Part shown: one piece after another, positions 13,137 to 23,931 of the stretch | How the letters are laid out: each line of letters starts with the position of its first letter | Position numbering within the stretch: position 1 is the first letter of the stretch | Source: an uncultured Myxococcales bacterium | Lineage (GTDB): Bacteria; Myxococcota_A; Polyangia; Polyangiales; Polyangiaceae | Direction of reading: 5' to 3' | Assembly (NCBI GenBank): GCA_937902985.1 | Contig: CALFNG010000226.1 | Coordinates: forward strand, 1 to 37,177 | DNA: 37,177 bases | Notes under the pieces: generated by a model | Databases searched by the model: none | The model's input: only the letters and a program-made list of their open reading frames with translations | Told to the model about the DNA's origin: nothing | Position numbers and translations under genes: made by a program

Positions 13137-14648
13137 ATGGTACTTCGGGGCGCCGTGCGTCTGCCCGCCGTACGACCGAGCACGATCTTCTACGGATGCG
13201 TGGCGGTGCTGGCTTCGGCGCCGGCGTGGATCGTCGAGCATCCGCCCCTCGAGGATCTGCCGTTTCACATGGCGACGCTCCGCGCGATCCACAGCTACTC
13301 GGATCCCGCGTACGGCTTCGGCGCCGACTTCTTCCTCAACCTCTTTCACACGCAGTACGCGCTCTACTACGTCGTCGGCTCGGCCCTGGCGTACGTCTTC
13401 GGGGTCACGGGCGCGACCATCGCGCTCATGAGCGCGTACCTGGGCGGCACCGTCCTGGCGCTTCGCGCCCTGCTCGCGGCGATCGGCAAAGACGAGCGGC
13501 TGACGCTCTTCGTCCTGCCGCTCCTCGTGAACGTGATGTTCCTCTACGGTCTCTTGCCGTTCGTGTGCGGCATCCCGCTGATGCTCGTCGGGCTCGCGGC
13601 CACCGTGCGATATCACGAGCGTCCGTCGCGGGGCGCGGGCGTGGGGCTCGCGGCGCTCGCGGTCGCGCTCTTCTACGCCCACGTCGTGCCCTACGCGCTC
13701 TTCGGCGTCGGTTACGCCGCCCTCTTCCCCTGGAAGCGACCCTCGCGATGGCTCTCGGCCGCGCTCCCGGTCGCGCCCTCGCTCCTGGCCGTCGTCGGCT
13801 GGGTGGCCCTGTCGTCGCAGGGCCAGGAGTCCGCCGGAGCCCTCGAGGCCGCGCTCCGTCACCCGCCGTACGTGGACGCGATGGCGCGCCTGCCGCAGTG
13901 GTCGATCGACGTCTTTCGCGACACGACCGACGAGTGGCACATCCTGGCTCTGGCCATCGTGGTGTTGCTCTCGGTCGGCCTCGCGCAGGGCGATCGAGAT
14001 CACGCGAAGCCGGCGGCCCGGGCGCTCGTCGTCATCCCGATCGTGTGTCTCGTTCTCTATTTCACGACCGGCGACATGCTGGGCGACGTGTGGCTCTTCT
14101 CCCAGCGGTTCCCGGTCCCCGCGATGATCTCGGCGATCCCGCTGCTCCGTATGCCGACGGGCGCGCGCGGAGTGGTCGTCTCGGCGCTGGCGCTCTGGGT
14201 CGGCGCGTCGTCCATCGTGAACGATTGCACGCACTTCATTCGCTTCGAGCGCGAGGAGGTCGGCGACTTCGACGAAGCCATCGAGAAGATGGCGCCGCGG
14301 AGCCGCGTCGCGGCCCTCATCTACGACAAGTCGTCTTCCATCGTGAACGACGTGCCGTTCCTGCATTTCGGATCGTACTACCAGTCGCAGAAGGGGGGCG
14401 TGATCCAGTTCTCGAACTCGGGCGCCCTCTACTGGCCGGTGCGCTTCCGGCCCGGTCACTACCCACCGCCCGGTACGCGCCCGCGCCTCCGCTGGGAGTG
14501 GATGCCCGAGCAAGTGTCGATTCAGGAGCTCTATCCGTACTACGACTACGTGCTGACGCGCGGCAGGAACTTCTCGCCGCCGCCTGGAACGTTCCATCTC
14601 GCCTGGTCGGGCGATCGCTGGGCGGTCTATGCGCGCGACGGCCGGTGA
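13137..14648 (+). CDS. Polytopic membrane protein, GT-C-like, unknown function
   Basis: A 503-residue protein with about ten hydrophobic segments and a hydrophilic C-terminal domain of about 130 residues. The first loop after segment 1 carries acidic and His residues (PLEDLPFHMATLR), as in membrane glycosyltransferases that use polyprenyl-linked donors. The overall sequence is not a family I recognise. It is divergent from the three-gene glycosyltransferase operon with a 50-base gap, suggesting shared control and a common glycan pathway. The C-terminal part has many Tyr and Trp residues (LYPYYDYVLTRGR), consistent with sugar contact. The ATG at 13137 is the first available start. Confidence 0.7.
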   Translation: MVLRGAVRLPAVRPSTIFYGCVAVLASAPAWIVEHPPLEDLPFHMATLRAIHSYSDPAYGFGADFFLNLFHTQYALYYVVGSALAYVFGVTGATIALMSAYLGGTVLALRALLAAIGKDERLTLFVLPLLVNVMFLYGLLPFVCGIPLMLVGLAATVRYHERPSRGAGVGLAALAVALFYAHVVPYALFGVGYAALFPWKRPSRWLSAALPVAPSLLAVVGWVALSSQGQESAGALEAALRHPPYVDAMARLPQWSIDVFRDTTDEWHILALAIVVLLSVGLAQGDRDHAKPAARALVVIPIVCLVLYFTTGDMLGDVWLFSQRFPVPAMISAIPLLRMPTGARGVVVSALALWVGASSIVNDCTHFIRFEREEVGDFDEAIEKMAPRSRVAALIYDKSSSIVNDVPFLHFGSYYQSQKGGVIQFSNSGALYWPVRFRPGHYPPPGTRPRLRWEWMPEQVSIQELYPYYDYVLTRGRNFSPPPGTFHLAWSGDRWAVYARDGR

Positions 14649-15052: not shown

Positions 15053-15751
15053 TCAAGGTAACTTCGTGAACGTGGTCGTGGCGGGCATGCCGAGGCCAAA
15101 GCCTGGAGAAAAAGACAATGTCGTCGAGGTCACGGCATAGGTCACTGTCATCGCCGGAATCAGGCCCTGAGATCTGTAGGATGTGATGCCGTCCGCCGTC
15201 ATTGGCACCCCGGCGCCGACGTCCGAAGCGTCCTCGCATCCCAGGATGGCGTTCGCCGTGCCATCCGTGAATGTCATCGTCAGGGTGTTCGTGCCGGCTG
15301 GGTCGGTCTCGGTATACGTCCCGAGGTAGGTGTCCGTCGTGGTGCACCCGCGGGCAGAATCGTTGGTATGACCGGCTGGCGTGGTCGCAGGAGCTACTTG
15401 CTCCACGATGATACACGTCTTGTCAGAGTTGAAAGTGATAGCGAGGGTCACCTGCGCGGGGACTTTTCCGCTGTAGGTCCAGGTGCCTAGCAGCCGATCC
15501 GCACCGCCCCCCTCTCCGGCAGCGTCACCGCCGCCTGTCGAACCGATGCTGCTGCCGCCGCCCTCTGCACTCGTCGAACTGCCCGCCCCAGAGTTGGTCG
15601 CGCTCGAGCTGGCCGCACTGCCCGTCGTGCCGTCCTGGCCGCCGCCGTGACCGTCGGAACTGGTAGTCCCGTTCGCCCGCAGGCCAGAGCAGGCAGCGAC
15701 CAAAGATCCGGCGAGAACAAGACCGATTGTCCCTTTCGCAGTGCGCTTCAT
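15053..15751 (-). CDS. Secreted lipoprotein with Ser/Gly linker
   Basis: A 232-residue protein with a lipoprotein signal peptide: MKRTAKG start, hydrophobic core and lipobox LVAAC with Cys21. Residues 22-85 are a Ser/Thr/Gly-rich linker, common in myxobacterial surface lipoproteins. The remaining 145 residues form a compact beta-rich domain (LLGTWTYSGKVPAQVTLAI, then YLGTYTETD) reminiscent of small lipocalin-like or lipoprotein beta-barrel folds. I cannot name the family. The ATG at 15751 is preceded by GGAG at a good distance. A sigma-54 promoter match lies about 85-97 bases upstream. It is divergent from the DM9 lipoprotein gene, suggesting joint control. Confidence 0.78.
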   Translation of the reverse strand: MKRTAKGTIGLVLAGSLVAACSGLRANGTTSSDGHGGGQDGTTGSAASSSATNSGAGSSTSAEGGGSSIGSTGGGDAAGEGGGADRLLGTWTYSGKVPAQVTLAITFNSDKTCIIVEQVAPATTPAGHTNDSARGCTTTDTYLGTYTETDPAGTNTLTMTFTDGTANAILGCEDASDVGAGVPMTADGITSYRSQGLIPAMTVTYAVTSTTLSFSPGFGLGMPATTTFTKLP

Positions 15752-15834
15752 GAAGAGATCTCCGCGTGTCCCTCGACGGGGAATCGTTGCGGTCCCGAGC
15801 GTCCCGCGCTGGTCTCCATGTTCGCCCTTCCGGA

Positions 15835-15848
15835 GCAAGCCGTGTGCC
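15835..15848 (-). promoter_or_regulatory. Candidate sigma-54 promoter for the 15053-15751 lipoprotein
   Basis: On the minus strand the sequence CGGCACACGGCTTGCT fits the -24/-12 consensus TGGCAC-N5-TTGCW in all positions except the first T. A start about 12 bases past the TTGC element would leave a leader near 70 bases. This is pattern matching only. Confidence 0.5.
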
Positions 15849-16004
15849 GCGGTTTCATACACACGAACGCTCCTTCCTTCTGCTTGCGGAGTTGCCATTG
15901 GCGGCGAAGAGAGAACGAATTCCTTCCTGGCGGTGGTTCCTCCGGCGCGTCGGCTCGAGTCCGAAGTCAGGATGGCGGAGGCCGTAACCGGTCGCGGGAA
16001 CACT

Positions 16005-16025
16005 GGTAACACCCAGGTAACACCC
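16005..16025. promoter_or_regulatory. Tandem 11-base repeat, possible enhancer site
   Basis: GGTAACACCC occurs at 16005-16014 and 16016-16025, so the copies lie one helical turn apart on the same face. They are about 130-150 bases upstream of the start expected from the plus-strand sigma-54 match and about 180-200 from the minus one, typical enhancer distances. The binding protein is unknown. Confidence 0.4.
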
Positions 16026-16127
16026 CTGACCGCGCGTAGCGTTCCGCCGTGCCCCGTCTCGGCGTCGCTCGCCGGCGTTCGCCTACGAAATGCGGCGGCA
16101 GCGTGGGCGCGCGCAACGCAAGAGGTG

Positions 16128-16141
16128 GGCACGGTTGTTGC
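16128..16141 (+). promoter_or_regulatory. Candidate sigma-54 promoter for the DM9 lipoprotein
   Basis: GGCACGGTTGTTGC preceded by G matches TGGCACG-N4-TTGC with correct spacing. Transcription would begin near 16153, giving a leader of about 150 bases before the ATG at 16307. The match is by eye. Confidence 0.5.
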
Positions 16142-16306
16142 GAAGGGCCCGGCGCGACCACCGACGACCGGGCATCGCGCCTTCTGACACGAAGCCAGGA
16201 GCCGTCGGACACTTCATCAGGAAGGGATTGGTTGAGGCCTAGTTCCTAGTAGGTCGAATGGCCCATTGCAGTTCGCCCACGTCTCCAGAAAACGGGAGTC
16301 ACATTC

Positions 16307-18211
16307 ATGATCTCAATTCGACGCTATTCGAATTTTTTCCTCACGCCCCTCTTGGTGCTGGCAAGCTGCTCGAGCGGCCCCACGGAAGATCCTGCATCCT
16401 CGACTGCAGAAGCACTCTCCGCGAACGCGGCGACCCAGGCCACTTCCTCGGCGAGTCCTGCGCCTGCACACAAAGAGTGGCACCGGGCGATGTCGAAAAC
16501 GCGCTCTTCGTCGAAGGACGGGTGCTTTCAAGCCACTTACCCGAGCACGACCTGGGTCGAGGTTCCGTGCACGAAGGCCCCGGACTACCCGCTCATCCCC
16601 GCACAAGGGGGCGCTCGCGCCGCGGGCGCCCCCGAGACGGTGGGCAACAACTCGGGCGACTCCACGTCTATCGCTTCGGGGACGATTTCCTGGTCGGAAG
16701 GTTCGTTCCCCAGCGTCATCGGCGTGAACAGCGAGAAGGCCAACGGCGTCGCCAACACCTATTCGCTCCAGCTGAACACGAACAAGTTCAACACCTCGGC
16801 CTGCAACGGGCACTCGGGCTGCCAGGGCTGGGAGCAGTTCGTCTTCGAAGGAACGGGGGGTGGATTCATTCAGTACTGGCTCATCGGCTACGGCGGCACC
16901 TGCCCGTCGGGGTGGACGAACAATGGTGCCCCGGCCGGAGACTGCTACCGGAACTCCGGCACCTCTGCTCCCGTTCCGGCCCAGGCGATCACGAACCTGG
17001 CCAACCTCTCGGTGTTGGGTTCGGCCGGTAGCTCGGACATGCTCACGATCGCGGTAGGAAACGTGGTCTACATGATCTCCCAGGCTAGCGTCCTGGGCCT
17101 GAACGCGGGCGGGTGGACGACTTCCGAGTTCAACGTCTTCGGGGACTCCGGTGGCGACCAAGCCGTCTTCCAAGACCCCGGCACGACGATCGTCGTGCAG
17201 ACCTTGACCGAGAGCGTCACACCGACGGAAAACGCGCCGCAGTGCGGGACCAGCAGCTTCACCGGCGAAACGAACAACCTGACCTTGGTCCCGGGTTCCT
17301 GCTGCGCCATCGGCGGCGTCTCGCCGGGAATCCAGTTCGAGGAGAGCAACGGTTCGCCGGCGGCCCAGTCTTGCCAGCTCGTGGCGCTCCCCGATCCCGC
17401 TTGGTCGTCGGTCGGTCACCCGTTTGACGCCGTTCGGACGGGGACGGACACCGATGGGGCGACCTTCTTTTCATGCCGCGCCAATTATCAGGGTAGCCTT
17501 CAAGTTGGTAAGACGCGCGGCAGCTGGCAATCCTGCGACATCAGCTTTGGCGGTCAGGAGGTCTTTCTCAAACCCTACGAGTCGCTCGTGGGCCCTTGGA
17601 CCGACGGGAGCGGCGACACGATGTCCAGCAACGCGCTGGCGTTCGGTACGGACGGCAGCGGAGGACCGCCGTTGTATCCCTGCCGGGCATACCTGAACGG
17701 CAATGGGTATCAGTTGGGCAAAGTCCGGCCAGGTCTCGGGGGCTGCTATATCCCCTACGGAGGCTCGGAGCAGATAGCCACCCGCTATCAAGTGCTGACG
17801 GGGGAACTCGCGTTGGTCACGCAGGGCTTCAGCAATGCAACCCCGCCTTCCAACGCGTTGGTGGGCGGCTACGACACGGACAACGCGCCGTTCTACGTCT
17901 GCCAAGCCGTGTTCAATGGCGGGTACGTTCCCGGCAAGACCCGCTCGAGCTGGCATAGCTGCGACGTGAGCTGGGGCGGGTCAGAGCACTTCGTCTCGAG
18001 CTACAATGTGCTGGTGCCGTTTTTCAAGGCTGCTCCGGGCACGATCTTCCAGGCCGGGCTCGATACGAACGGGAGTCCGCTTGGCATTTGCCACGCCAGC
18101 TACCAAAACAGCCAGCAGGTCGGCAAGTACCTGAGCTACGGCGCTTGCAACTTCGGCTTCGGGGGTCACGAGGTGTCGCTCAATTCGGGGTACCAGGTGC
18201 TCTCGTTCTGA
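16307..18211 (+). CDS. Lipoprotein with four DM9 (DUF3421) repeats
   Basis: A 634-residue secreted lipoprotein: lipobox LVLASC with Cys21, a Ser/Ala linker to about 55, then a Cys-rich beta domain (about 56-356; GCFQATYPSTTWVEVPC at 72-88) that I do not recognise. Four DM9 repeats follow at about 377-428, 443-498, 516-570 and 581-633. Each has the pattern aromatic-x-C-R/Q/H-A, then GK, then C-x3-(F/W/Y)GG-x-E. DM9 domains in animal proteins bind mannose-type glycans and microbes. A glycan-binding surface role is inferred. Paired Cys in each repeat suggests disulfides. The start ATG follows GGGAG. The gene faces away from another lipoprotein gene across a spacer with sigma-54-like promoters and is followed by a terminator-like hairpin. 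Confidence 0.88.
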   Translation: MISIRRYSNFFLTPLLVLASCSSGPTEDPASSTAEALSANAATQATSSASPAPAHKEWHRAMSKTRSSSKDGCFQATYPSTTWVEVPCTKAPDYPLIPAQGGARAAGAPETVGNNSGDSTSIASGTISWSEGSFPSVIGVNSEKANGVANTYSLQLNTNKFNTSACNGHSGCQGWEQFVFEGTGGGFIQYWLIGYGGTCPSGWTNNGAPAGDCYRNSGTSAPVPAQAITNLANLSVLGSAGSSDMLTIAVGNVVYMISQASVLGLNAGGWTTSEFNVFGDSGGDQAVFQDPGTTIVVQTLTESVTPTENAPQCGTSSFTGETNNLTLVPGSCCAIGGVSPGIQFEESNGSPAAQSCQLVALPDPAWSSVGHPFDAVRTGTDTDGATFFSCRANYQGSLQVGKTRGSWQSCDISFGGQEVFLKPYESLVGPWTDGSGDTMSSNALAFGTDGSGGPPLYPCRAYLNGNGYQLGKVRPGLGGCYIPYGGSEQIATRYQVLTGELALVTQGFSNATPPSNALVGGYDTDNAPFYVCQAVFNGGYVPGKTRSSWHSCDVSWGGSEHFVSSYNVLVPFFKAAPGTIFQAGLDTNGSPLGICHASYQNSQQVGKYLSYGACNFGFGGHEVSLNSGYQVLSF

Positions 18212-18692: not shown

Positions 18693-18696
18693 CTAG
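18678..18696. terminator. AT-rich stem-loop at the end of the pseudoprotease gene
   Basis: CTAGCTTA and TAAGCTAG form an 8-base stem with loop AGC. It includes the TAG stop of the minus-strand gene and is strikingly AT-rich for this window. It may end the kinase operon transcript. Confidence 0.4.
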
Positions 18697-20195
18697 AGCG
18701 GCCCGATGACGAGCGTCTCGAACTGAGGGACCACCTGCTCGACGCCTCCCCAGGTGACGTCGCAGGCGCCCTGGCGCACGACGCCCGGGTCGACGCCGGC
18801 CCCATACGAGGCGCGACAGGCGACGAGGGGGGTCGGGCCCGCGTAGCCTGGCGCGAAGGACCCGGGCACGGGGACTCCCGCGGAAGCGCTCTGCCACGAA
18901 GACGAGCCCGAGACCTGGAGCAGCTTATAGACGAGTGGCCACGCCTCGCCCCCATTGGCGTCGTACGAGCAGCCACCTTCCGCCCAGAATTTGCCTGGAA
19001 TCTGCTGCCCTGCCATCCACACCAAACAAATGCCGAACGAGCGCGTCCGCATGTTACCAGCCGTGTCCGTAACCACTTCGGATCCTGCTTCGAAAAATGT
19101 CGCAGGCAGCGGGTCGCGTTCCTCGGGCGGGTCTTCGAGCAGTTCCGATTCACGAGACCAGCTGTACGGGCCCGATGTCGACGGCGGCGCGACGCCCTGG
19201 ATCATCGACTCGTCGCGTAGCCAGAGCATCTGCTCCAGCCAGCTTCCCTCGGCCGCGGAAAACGTCGTGTGGAACGAGAGGAGCGAGGACGCGGGTTGAT
19301 AGAGGCTACCCATGACGAGCGCACCACTGTGGGCGAAGGCGGGGGCGCCGAGGTCGCTGGAGACTGGCGCGAGCGAGCCCACCACGTCGAGTTGCAGGCT
19401 CGAGTCATCAACGAGGGTCGCTCCGCCGCCCTGCGCGCGACGTACGACGCTCGTTGGATTCTCGATCCTCCAGCTTGCCGTCATCATGGTTCCCGTACCG
19501 CTCCGGAGCACCTGAGCTGCGGGTATGCCCGAGTGCCATCCGAAGGGCGACGCAATGCCGTCTGTCGACGTCATGGTGAGCATCGGAGCCCCGATCGACG
19601 ATGGTTCCGGCTGGTCGCTTGCGACGGCGAGCAGCAGCGCGGCCTGTCCTCCGGGACTGCGGTGGACGCTTTGTACCGCGTAGACGATCGTTCTATCGGC
19701 GTGAAGAAGGGCGTCGCCCGTCGGGTTCAACGCGAACCGCGTTTGCGACGTGGCGCTGGCCAGGCAGTTTACGGAGGTGAGCACGGTTCGCGGGCCAACC
19801 AGGACTCCGGTGCACGACAGGGTGAGTGCGGCGAGGCGCTCGTTGGAGTGGTCCGTGACGCTGGCGCTCGTGACATTCACGGGCGTCGAGACGCCCGTGA
19901 CGAAGCCAACCGCAGGGAAGGTGATGTCAGCCATGCCCTGAAGATCACTTGCCTCGGGGGCCTCAGAAAGGAGGCCCGCATCCCCTGCATCGACGACGTC
20001 CACGTCATTCGGGGTGGGCGGCGTCGAAGCGTCGACCGCCGCACCGGCGGCGTCGGTAGGTCCCGACGACATCCAAGCGCCGCCTTCCGCGGGCCAACCG
20101 TCGCGCGGAGACCCCAAGCCGAGAAGGTCGCCGCATGCGACTGCCGCGGACGTGAGCACGACGGACGTGGCGATCGTCGCAAGGATGCGGTTCAC
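18693..20195 (-). CDS. Lipoprotein: trypsin-like pseudoprotease with C-terminal DM9 repeats
   Basis: A 500-residue protein starting at GTG 20195 (GTGA overlap with the upstream stop). It has a lipoprotein signal with Cys21 (SAAVAC). Residues about 95-330 resemble a trypsin-fold domain, but all three catalytic positions are lost. The His motif TAAHC is TSVNC (Asn143), the DIALL Asp site reads QAALLL, and GDSGGP is SDLGAP (Leu282). Two DM9-type repeats follow, about 385-428 and 445-498 (RASYGAGVDPGVV, CDVTWGGVEQ). So it is probably a binding protein, not an enzyme. It is the last gene of the operon with a Ser/Thr kinase and a TPR/PEGA protein. A decayed copy of its tail lies at 14821-14940. Confidence 0.82.
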   Translation of the reverse strand: MNRILATIATSVVLTSAAVACGDLLGLGSPRDGWPAEGGAWMSSGPTDAAGAAVDASTPPTPNDVDVVDAGDAGLLSEAPEASDLQGMADITFPAVGFVTGVSTPVNVTSASVTDHSNERLAALTLSCTGVLVGPRTVLTSVNCLASATSQTRFALNPTGDALLHADRTIVYAVQSVHRSPGGQAALLLAVASDQPEPSSIGAPMLTMTSTDGIASPFGWHSGIPAAQVLRSGTGTMMTASWRIENPTSVVRRAQGGGATLVDDSSLQLDVVGSLAPVSSDLGAPAFAHSGALVMGSLYQPASSLLSFHTTFSAAEGSWLEQMLWLRDESMIQGVAPPSTSGPYSWSRESELLEDPPEERDPLPATFFEAGSEVVTDTAGNMRTRSFGICLVWMAGQQIPGKFWAEGGCSYDANGGEAWPLVYKLLQVSGSSSWQSASAGVPVPGSFAPGYAGPTPLVACRASYGAGVDPGVVRQGACDVTWGGVEQVVPQFETLVIGPL

Positions 20196-21190
20196 AGCTC
20201 TCCTTCCATTGTCAGGCCCCTGGTCGTCCCCAGCGTTGGCACGACTCGAATGTGCGGGGACCGTGACAGGAGGGCCCACGTGACTCCCGCCAAGACTGCG
20301 CATGAACCGGCCGCGATCTCGACCGTCGCCATCGTCGACCACGATCGCGCGTCGTGATCAGCGGCGAGACCCGTCGGATCACAGTAGCGTGACGAACAGT
20401 GGTCGTTGCGCGTGCGCGTGGTTTCGACAGCAAGCCACCCTGACCCTAGGCCGACCCCAACCGCCACGGTTCCGAGGACCATGAAGGAAAGTGGGATCAC
20501 CCCCAGCCGGACGGTGCCTGGCCTCGGCGCAAGGACCGACGCCTCCCGCGCCTGACTGTTCGCACTCGACGGCACGGGTGCGACAAGATCCTGACGCGTG
20601 TCCGGCGACGCTGTGTCTGTCTTCGCCGCCCCATCATCGCGTTCGAGCGACCTCAGCGAGGCGGTCACGCGAGTGACGACGCCCGCCGCGATGGCTGCTT
20701 CGCCTTGGAACGAGCTGTAACCGGCCGCTTCGACCACGAACAGGCGAGGACCAGTGGATATCCGCGTCGGGACGCCGGCTGCGAGGGTCGCGTGACCGTC
20801 GACGATCACCCGGGCCTCGGCAGGAGTCGCATCGACTTCTAGCCATCCGAGATGCATGGCTACCGTCGCCATCGCTCCCTCGATCGCCGTTCGATGCTTC
20901 CGAATCCACGGGTCATGCGTGGCTGCGAGTGCTAGCGTCAGATTGACTTCCGCTTCCGACCAGCGTGAAAGCGCCTGCTGTGCGAGACCGATCTGGGCGG
21001 TCGCGCACGGAGAGGGCTCGATTTGACTCGCGGCTTCGAAGCTCGCCAGAGCTTCCTCATTTCGATGTTCGCGACGTAGCGCGATCCCTCTCCGTAGGAG
21101 TTCGGTAGCGGTGGCATCGCCGGCTCGGCACGGCGCGACGTTCGCGATGACGAAGGCGGCGACGAGCGCCAGTCGCGTGCGCACCTTCAT
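20192..21190 (-). CDS. TPR and PEGA domain protein with membrane segments
   Basis: A 332-residue protein with a signal peptide (1-23, ending PCRAG), TPR-like helices about 28-90 (LLRRGIALRREHRNEEAL), and a PEGA domain about 115-180 (GWLEVDATPAEARVIVDG, then AAGYSSFQGEAAI). A Ser/Ala linker follows, then two hydrophobic segments near 230-252 and 288-308. Such TPR/PEGA proteins are very common in myxobacteria beside Ser/Thr kinases and act in the envelope, probably as scaffolds. The ATG at 21190 overlaps the kinase stop (ATGA), and its own stop overlaps the pseudoprotease start (GTGA), so the three are translated together. Confidence 0.85.
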   Translation of the reverse strand: MKVRTRLALVAAFVIANVAPCRAGDATATELLRRGIALRREHRNEEALASFEAASQIEPSPCATAQIGLAQQALSRWSEAEVNLTLALAATHDPWIRKHRTAIEGAMATVAMHLGWLEVDATPAEARVIVDGHATLAAGVPTRISTGPRLFVVEAAGYSSFQGEAAIAAGVVTRVTASLRSLERDDGAAKTDTASPDTRQDLVAPVPSSANSQAREASVLAPRPGTVRLGVIPLSFMVLGTVAVGVGLGSGWLAVETTRTRNDHCSSRYCDPTGLAADHDARSWSTMATVEIAAGSCAVLAGVTWALLSRSPHIRVVPTLGTTRGLTMEGEL

Positions 21191-22500: not shown

Positions 22501-23931
22501 ATGCACGCTACGATCGTGGTCGTGATGCACCCGGACGACGCGACCCACGACGACAGCGCGAACGAATGCCGCGACGCTGATCAATTCTCTAGGCCGTTCT
22601 TGGTCGTGGCGTTCGAATGCGGGCGGCCGCTTGCTGGAGCGACAAGAGTCGATCTCGAGGGTGTGGAGCGGGTGCTGATTGGACGAGGCGAGCAGCGTTC
22701 GTTCGCGCGCAGTTCCGATCCCGGCCCCGTCACGCTCAATGGGCAAGTTCCGGGCCGTTCCATGTCAGGGTCGCATGCACGCCTGGTTCGAAACGGCAGC
22801 CAGTGGGCCATCGACGATCTGGGAAGCACCAACGGCATTTTCGTGAACGGCGCCCGCACACGGCGGGCCGTGATCAGCGAGCAGGACGTCATCGAGGTCG
22901 GTCATACGATCCTCTTGCTCCGGAGCGCGGTCGCGCGACCGGTTCCAGACGCGCACGAAGACGTCCAGGGCCCCGATGCCATGCCTGTCACTCTGAACGC
23001 CGACTTCGCGCGCCGGCTGCTGGCTCTCGAGCGCTTGGCCCCGTCGATGGTACCGGTCCTCATTCTCGGAGAGTCCGGGGTCGGCAAGGAGGTCGTCGCA
23101 AGAGCACTCCACGCCGCCTCGAACCGGAAGGGGCTGTTCGTCGGCGTCAATTGCGGCGCCATCCCCGAGTCACTGGTGGAGAGTCAGCTGTTCGGTCACG
23201 TCCGGGGAGCCTTTTCAGGGGCGGTTAGAGACGAGCCCGGCTTCGTGCGGAGCGCTGATAGGGGAACGCTGTTCCTCGACGAGATAGCCGACCTTCCTCG
23301 TGCGTCGCAGGCGGCCTTACTGCGAGTGCTTCAAGAGCGCGAGGTCATACCCATCGGGACGACGCGACCCGTCAAGGTCGACCTTCGCTTCGTGGCGGCG
23401 ACGCACCAGTCCCTGGCTACCCTCGTGGCAAGAGGATCCTTCCGTCATGATCTATTCGCGCGCCTCGCCGGGTACACGCTGACGGTGTGTCCGCTCCGCG
23501 AACGCAAGGAAGACATCGGGATGCTCGTTCCGTCGATCTTGCGGAAGCTCGATGCCGAGCGAGCGCCACGGGTGACGTTCACGCCGGCCGCGGGGCGCGC
23601 GCTCTTCGCGCACGATTGGCCGTTCAATGTGCGTGAACTCGAGCACGCTCTGGCCGCCGCCATGGTACTCGCACCCGATCTCCGTATCGACGCGAACCAT
23701 CTGGGGGCGAGTGTGCTCGGAGAGATCGAGATGACCGATGCGCCCTCGGACCGAGAACCGCCGGGCGCCGACGACCCGATTCGGCTGCAACTCCTCGAGC
23801 AGCTGGCGATGCACGGCGGCCACGTCCCCACGGTCGCGCGAGCCATGGGCAAGGCGCGAATGCAGGTGCACCGGTGGCTCAAACGCTACGGAATCGACCC
23901 GGGCGCCTACCGTCGCCGAGACCTGTCTTGA
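22501..23931 (+). CDS. FHA-domain sigma-54-dependent transcription activator
   Basis: A 476-residue enhancer-binding protein. Residues about 57-140 form an FHA domain that binds phosphothreonine (GRG at 61-63, SGSHARL at 89-95, STNGIFVNG at 109-117). The AAA+ domain has Walker A GESGVGKE at 190-197, a GAFTGA loop here written GAFSGA (236-241), Walker B TLFLDEIADL, and the arginine region FRHDLFARL. A Fis-type helix-turn-helix is at about 430-465 (GHVPTVARAMGKARMQVHRW). FHA-type activators are expanded in myxobacteria and are thought to respond to Ser/Thr kinases. The divergent kinase gene makes it a likely partner. The ATG at 22501 lacks a strong ribosome site; GTG/ATG codons nearby at 22522-22525 are alternatives. 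Confidence 0.9.
   Translation: MHATIVVVMHPDDATHDDSANECRDADQFSRPFLVVAFECGRPLAGATRVDLEGVERVLIGRGEQRSFARSSDPGPVTLNGQVPGRSMSGSHARLVRNGSQWAIDDLGSTNGIFVNGARTRRAVISEQDVIEVGHTILLLRSAVARPVPDAHEDVQGPDAMPVTLNADFARRLLALERLAPSMVPVLILGESGVGKEVVARALHAASNRKGLFVGVNCGAIPESLVESQLFGHVRGAFSGAVRDEPGFVRSADRGTLFLDEIADLPRASQAALLRVLQEREVIPIGTTRPVKVDLRFVAATHQSLATLVARGSFRHDLFARLAGYTLTVCPLRERKEDIGMLVPSILRKLDAERAPRVTFTPAAGRALFAHDWPFNVRELEHALAAAMVLAPDLRIDANHLGASVLGEIEMTDAPSDREPPGADDPIRLQLLEQLAMHGGHVPTVARAMGKARMQVHRWLKRYGIDPGAYRRRDLS

Follow-up and report, generated by a model that had tools for sequence, protein, structure and literature searches.

The spacer at 15752-16306, which separates two outward-facing putative lipoprotein genes in the window (the whole stretch of 37,177 nt analyzed here), likely carries a divergent pair of sigma-54 promoters, because upstream sites scoring like those found in it have local false discovery rates (FDRs) of about 4-9% in the case of the minus-strand site and about 10-30% in that of the plus-strand site. 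The minus promoter is surer than the plus promoter, and the best explanation, held with modest confidence, is that both outward-facing sigma-54 promoters are real. A wider pattern was also detected in the genome, its family and its class, where the TTGCT of sigma-54-like elements is followed at 12-15 nt by an ATG far more often than expected by chance. This candidate leaderless pattern matters more than the spacer pair itself and deserves a separate study.

The spacer and its two -24/-12 matches

The features considered are the following.

15053-15751, minus strand: gene encoding a putative lipoprotein of 232 aa (MKRTAKGTIGLVLAGSLVAACSG...), with a lipobox-type N-terminus and a Gly/Ser-rich linker
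15748-15819, minus strand: 23-codon open reading frame (ORF; METSAGRSGPQRFPVEGHAEISS, then stop), with its ATG at a predicted position of about +5 and its TGA overlapping the lipoprotein ATG (ATGA)
15760-15763, minus strand: Shine-Dalgarno-like GGAG, 8 nt ahead of the start codon of the lipoprotein gene
15834-15849, minus strand: probable sigma-54 promoter (-24/-12), CGGCACACGGCTTGCT, oriented toward the minus-strand lipoprotein gene; best genome-trained score in the window
16005-16025, plus strand: perfect direct repeat GGTAACACCC with an 11-bp period, between the two sites
16127-16142, plus strand: possible sigma-54 promoter (-24/-12), GGGCACGGTTGTTGCG, oriented toward the plus-strand lipoprotein gene; poor at -26 and -11
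16307-18211, plus strand: gene encoding a putative lipoprotein of 634 aa (MISIRRYSNFFLTPLLVLASCSSG...) whose C-terminal half contains DM9 repeats
22501-23931, plus strand: FHA-domain sigma-54 activator with GAFSGA for GAFTGA and a C-terminal HTH

The motif GGCAC-N5-TTGC occurs exactly twice in the whole window, at 15835-15848 on the minus strand and at 16128-16141 on the plus strand, just where the first-pass annotation had placed it. Its statement that each match faces the neighboring lipoprotein gene is likewise borne out, with distances of approximately 84 nt to the ATG at 15751 (minus strand) and 165 nt to the ATG at 16307 (plus strand). In dinucleotide shuffles of the window, 0.25 matches were expected, and two or more were reached in 4 out of 100 shuffles. 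The GG of the -24 element and the GC of the -12 element are present exactly, at the fixed spacing, in both sites. Neither site matches the full TGGCAC-N5-TTGCW, which is a consensus and not an absolute requirement for a sigma-54 promoter: the T at -26 is missing from both, and the A/T at -11 from the plus site as well. Among the sites used for training, T at -26 was found in 56% and W at -11 in 94%. Searches of the spacer for consensus sigma-70 promoters and terminators, and for structured RNAs or tRNAs, gave no hits.

Genome-calibrated scoring of sigma-54 sites

The genome (8.31 Mb in 563 contigs, approximately 69% G+C) contains 59 copies of the nine-base core, compared with 94 of a reversed control pattern, and 11 of the 28 core sites that could be classified fall inside predicted coding sequence. 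Since the core is uninformative on its own, the earlier argument that two such matches are unlikely by chance is weaker than was stated, and core-motif counting, showing no genome-wide enrichment, was dropped as evidence for sigma-54. A matrix was therefore trained on the same genome. The same counts, together with the fact that the region was picked after the matches had been seen, would fit the view that the two matches arose by chance in DNA rich in G+C; we regard this as improbable, and against it stand the genome-trained matrix and the spacing controls described below, by which upstream sites with such scores have low local FDRs.

The scan covered 1.94 of the 8.31 Mb, taken as stretches of the same genome in which genes were called with a simple codon-usage model. 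The first matrix was an approximate consensus, with weights after the published one, and matrices with an altered, wrong spacer length served as controls; a second matrix was retrained on 50 upstream sites with 4-fold cross-validation. In this sample, high-scoring sites with the correct spacer clustered upstream of genes. At an approximate-matrix score of at least 11.5, there were 68 upstream sites with the correct spacer versus 14.8 with a wrong one, and at a cross-validated score of at least 13, there were 49 versus 4.8 in the controls; many of the sampled contigs were already known to contain the core motif, so that site density is inflated, although the upstream-to-coding ratio should be unaffected. 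The wrong-spacer controls thereby validated the fixed spacing of GG and GC across the sample. Local FDRs of upstream sites decreased from 0.53 (score 11-12) to 0.27 (12-13), 0.09 (13-14), and 0.04 (14-15).

The minus site reached a genome-trained score of 14.4 (cross-validated mean 14.0, folds 12.9-14.9), corresponding to a local FDR of approximately 0.04-0.09, wider across folds. The plus site scored 13.0 (cross-validated mean 12.8, folds 11.7-13.9), with a local FDR of about 0.09-0.27 and up to 0.5 in one fold. These are the only two scores above 11 in the 37-kb window, the minus site being the best and the plus site the second. The weight-matrix comparison that had been proposed as a check on the promoters was thus carried out on this part of the genome, and the sigma-54 reading survived it. 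Plausible positive controls appeared in the same scan, namely sites before pilin-like and flagellar-type genes and a sigma-54-like site, TGGCACGAAAGTCGCT, located 51 bp upstream of the single rpoN gene (L069, 17247, plus strand), which suggests that rpoN may be autoregulated by sigma-54.

Several other divergent sigma-54-like pairs were found in the sample, and the arrangement is therefore unexceptional in this genome. By extrapolation, the sigma-54 regulon is large, in the order of 200 sites, and the spacer pair is an ordinary addition to it. Lipoprotein genes showed no significant over-representation among sigma-54 targets (8 of 59, versus 8.3%; p = 0.11), and no significant preference of sigma-54 for genes of lipoproteins or exported proteins was seen in the genome. 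As a separate observation, one locus (L059, G000:C447, ~23.8-34 kb) holds at least seven sigma-54-like sites, two of which form a divergent pair at 13208 (minus) and 13301 (plus), ahead of genes of the universal-stress-protein-like, CBS-domain-like and other types; similar stress-type genes preceded by sigma-54-like sites were also present in L049, L091, L125, and L142.

Start codons close to the -12 element

Sigma-54 promoters are usually discussed together with a leader and a Shine-Dalgarno sequence, and their transcripts usually start approximately 12 nt after the -12 element. In the genome sample, a start codon was located 11-17 nt beyond matrix position 18 in 18 of 59 true sites, versus 9 of 212 wrong-spacer sites, and in several genes whose starts had been trimmed by the gene finder, the ATG at the preferred distance opens a complete signal sequence. 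The sampled loci behind this clustering of start codons after TTGCT are L047-L127 and L137-L196.

The pattern TGGCACN5TTGCT-N2-32-ATG was then searched for across 108 genomes of the family, giving 457 matches. Among the first 150 listed, the ATG lay exactly 12-13 nt after TTGCT in 41, compared with about 3.4 per position elsewhere, and a control with one extra base in the spacer gave 61 matches and no peak at 12-13 nt. In other families of the same order and class, 30 of the 63 matches listed had the ATG at 12-15 nt (8.1 expected), and in other classes of the phylum, a weak peak was detected among the matches listed (15 of 74, 9.5 expected); these listings are not fully independent, as they come from related genomes and include overlapping ATGs. 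Because sigma-54 transcription usually starts about 12 nt past the -12 element, leaders of 0 to ~6 nt are predicted. Many sigma-54 promoters of this class would sit directly on their genes, with the -12 element 12-15 nt from the start codon. The positional signal across the class is strong, and we consider it quite probable that leaderless sigma-54 transcripts are common there. No description of such a pattern was found in limited open-access full-text searches. If true, it would combine the most stringent mode of activating transcription with the simplest way of initiating translation, many annotated gene starts would have to be corrected, and the positional rule of TTGCT, then 12-15 nt, then ATG would predict sigma-54 targets in these genomes.

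At the minus site of the spacer, an ATG is located 14 nt after TTGCT, inside the elevated range seen family- and class-wide. This codon is out of frame with the minus-strand lipoprotein gene and opens the 23-codon ORF. The minus promoter may represent a variant of the pattern in which a leaderless start codon opens a short ORF coupled through ATGA to the lipoprotein gene. The ATGA overlap is suggestive only as a coupling signal, because around 14% of upstream ATGs in the genome open ORFs ending in this way.

The plus site has no ATG at the preferred offset, and its implied leader is of approximately 154 nt. Such a long leader, the missing consensus bases on both flanks, and a poorer FDR (about 0.09-0.27, to 0.5 in one fold) are what would be seen if only the minus site were a real sigma-54 promoter, the plus match being a chance near-consensus and the DM9 lipoprotein gene being under another sigma factor. 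This alternative is the less likely one, although it deserves some weight: the genome-trained matrix ranks the plus site second in the 37 kb, the site is oriented toward a gene, and a sigma-70-like promoter was not found in the spacer.

Flanking genes, activators and known systems

The minus-strand lipoprotein had no Pfam match, and its relatives within the family were only weak; its gene has a low codon-usage score, was missed by the simple gene finder, and is accepted as putative on the basis of its signal sequence and the Shine-Dalgarno-like GGAG. The plus-strand lipoprotein gave a match to PF11901 (1.6e-55; 186 bits versus a cut-off of 26.2) that confirmed its DM9 repeats, and it resembles solved DM9 domains filed as Natterin-3; its lipobox-type N-terminus was judged by eye, a strict script having missed it. 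The nearest relatives of its N-terminal part are in Actinacidiphila/Streptomyces (Actinomycetota) and in Acidobacteriota MAGs, and relatives in its own family are patchy, a pattern consistent with horizontal spread of the DM9 gene. A second DM9-type gene (18693-20342, minus strand), whose match is below the Pfam cut-off, faces the first. Neither flanking gene occurs in the two further genomes of the genus that were compared, and no close homologues for assessing spacer conservation were found in the genus or family; the homologues from Actinomycetota and Acidobacteriota are too distant for their spacers to be compared.

RpoN and AAA+ activators, both needed by sigma-54 promoters, are encoded in the genome, the latter by approximately 50 genes with strong PF00158 matches; together with its size and G+C content, this profile suggests a polyangial myxobacterium. 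The activator noted earlier at a distance of 6 kb is indeed one of them: it matches PF00158 (1.2e-57), FHA (3.2e-12) and an HTH-type domain, its main motifs are intact, and its P-loop reads GESGVGKE. It thus has the features of a bacterial enhancer-binding protein, that is, an AAA+ domain with a GAFTGA-type loop (GAFSGA), a sensor domain and an HTH, and GAFSGA is among the loop variants expected to keep activity (PMC4641369). Its relevance to the spacer found no support, however. Sigma-54 sites were not enriched within 7 kb of activators (4 observed versus 3.3 expected), so the position of this gene says little, and with some 50 activators encoded, the neighboring one is unsupported as the regulator of the spacer.

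The direct repeat GGTAACACCC is unique in the genome and is located upstream of both -24 elements, at a distance of ~103-123 bp from that of the plus site and of 156-176 bp from that of the minus site; tandem repeats bound by activators are typically found 80-150 bp upstream (PMC7910581). These distances, the uniqueness of the repeat and the presumed activity of the GAFSGA loop would agree with a shared enhancer at which one activator, perhaps the FHA-type protein, switches both promoters. We consider this very improbable, as proximity of an activator is uninformative, exact 10-nt tandem repeats occur in 49 of 153 divergent spacers of the genome, and the regions upstream of sigma-54 sites in the genome sample show no enrichment of short tandem repeats. 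The repeat is therefore unsupported as an activator operator.

Under the preferred reading, with both sigma-54 promoters real, the spacer would be a divergent regulatory region whose RpoN-dependent promoters fire outward. The minus transcript would start near 15823, from RpoN-RNA polymerase bound to the -24/-12 element at 15849-15834, and, with lower certainty, the plus transcript would start near 16153, from polymerase bound at 16127-16142. Each promoter would stay closed until one of the ~50 bacterial enhancer-binding proteins opens it. The minus transcript would begin approximately 4 nt before the ATG of the 23-codon ORF, on which ribosomes could load in leaderless fashion before passing to the lipoprotein start by ATGA coupling, perhaps helped by GGAG, whereas the leader of the plus transcript would be of the conventional kind and ~154 nt long.

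The closest reference is the sigma-54 -24/-12 promoter with the consensus TGGCACG-N4-TTGC(T/A), examples in Myxococcus xanthus being those of actB (TGGCACA-N4-TTGCT), of pilA, and of MXAN881, a putative-lipoprotein gene (PMC9765219). The spacer sites share with these promoters GG and GC, correctly spaced, and the minus site has the TTGCT of M. xanthus actB. In contrast with the consensus, the T at -26 is missing from both, and the spacer promoters are predicted from sequence. Lipoprotein genes are known sigma-54 targets, both in M. xanthus (MXAN881; PMC9765219) and in Leptospira (PMC5243855). The back-to-back -24/-12 elements in one spacer resemble the divergent T3SS operons of Desulfovibrio vulgaris, which are controlled by sigma-54 from one shared intergenic region (PMC4641369); for those operons, an activator and a putative binding motif have been proposed, whereas neither was identified for the spacer described here. 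Regarding translation, leaderless promoters with a -10 element adjoining the ORF are found in Deinococcus-Thermus (PMC12340547), and Leptospira has leaderless mRNAs (PMC5243855). Although the element proposed here, deduced from sequence, is a sigma-54 -12 box and not the sigma-70 -10 box of Deinococcus-Thermus, the arrangement would be alike in all these cases, with a short, fixed interval between promoter element and start codon and little or no 5' leader.
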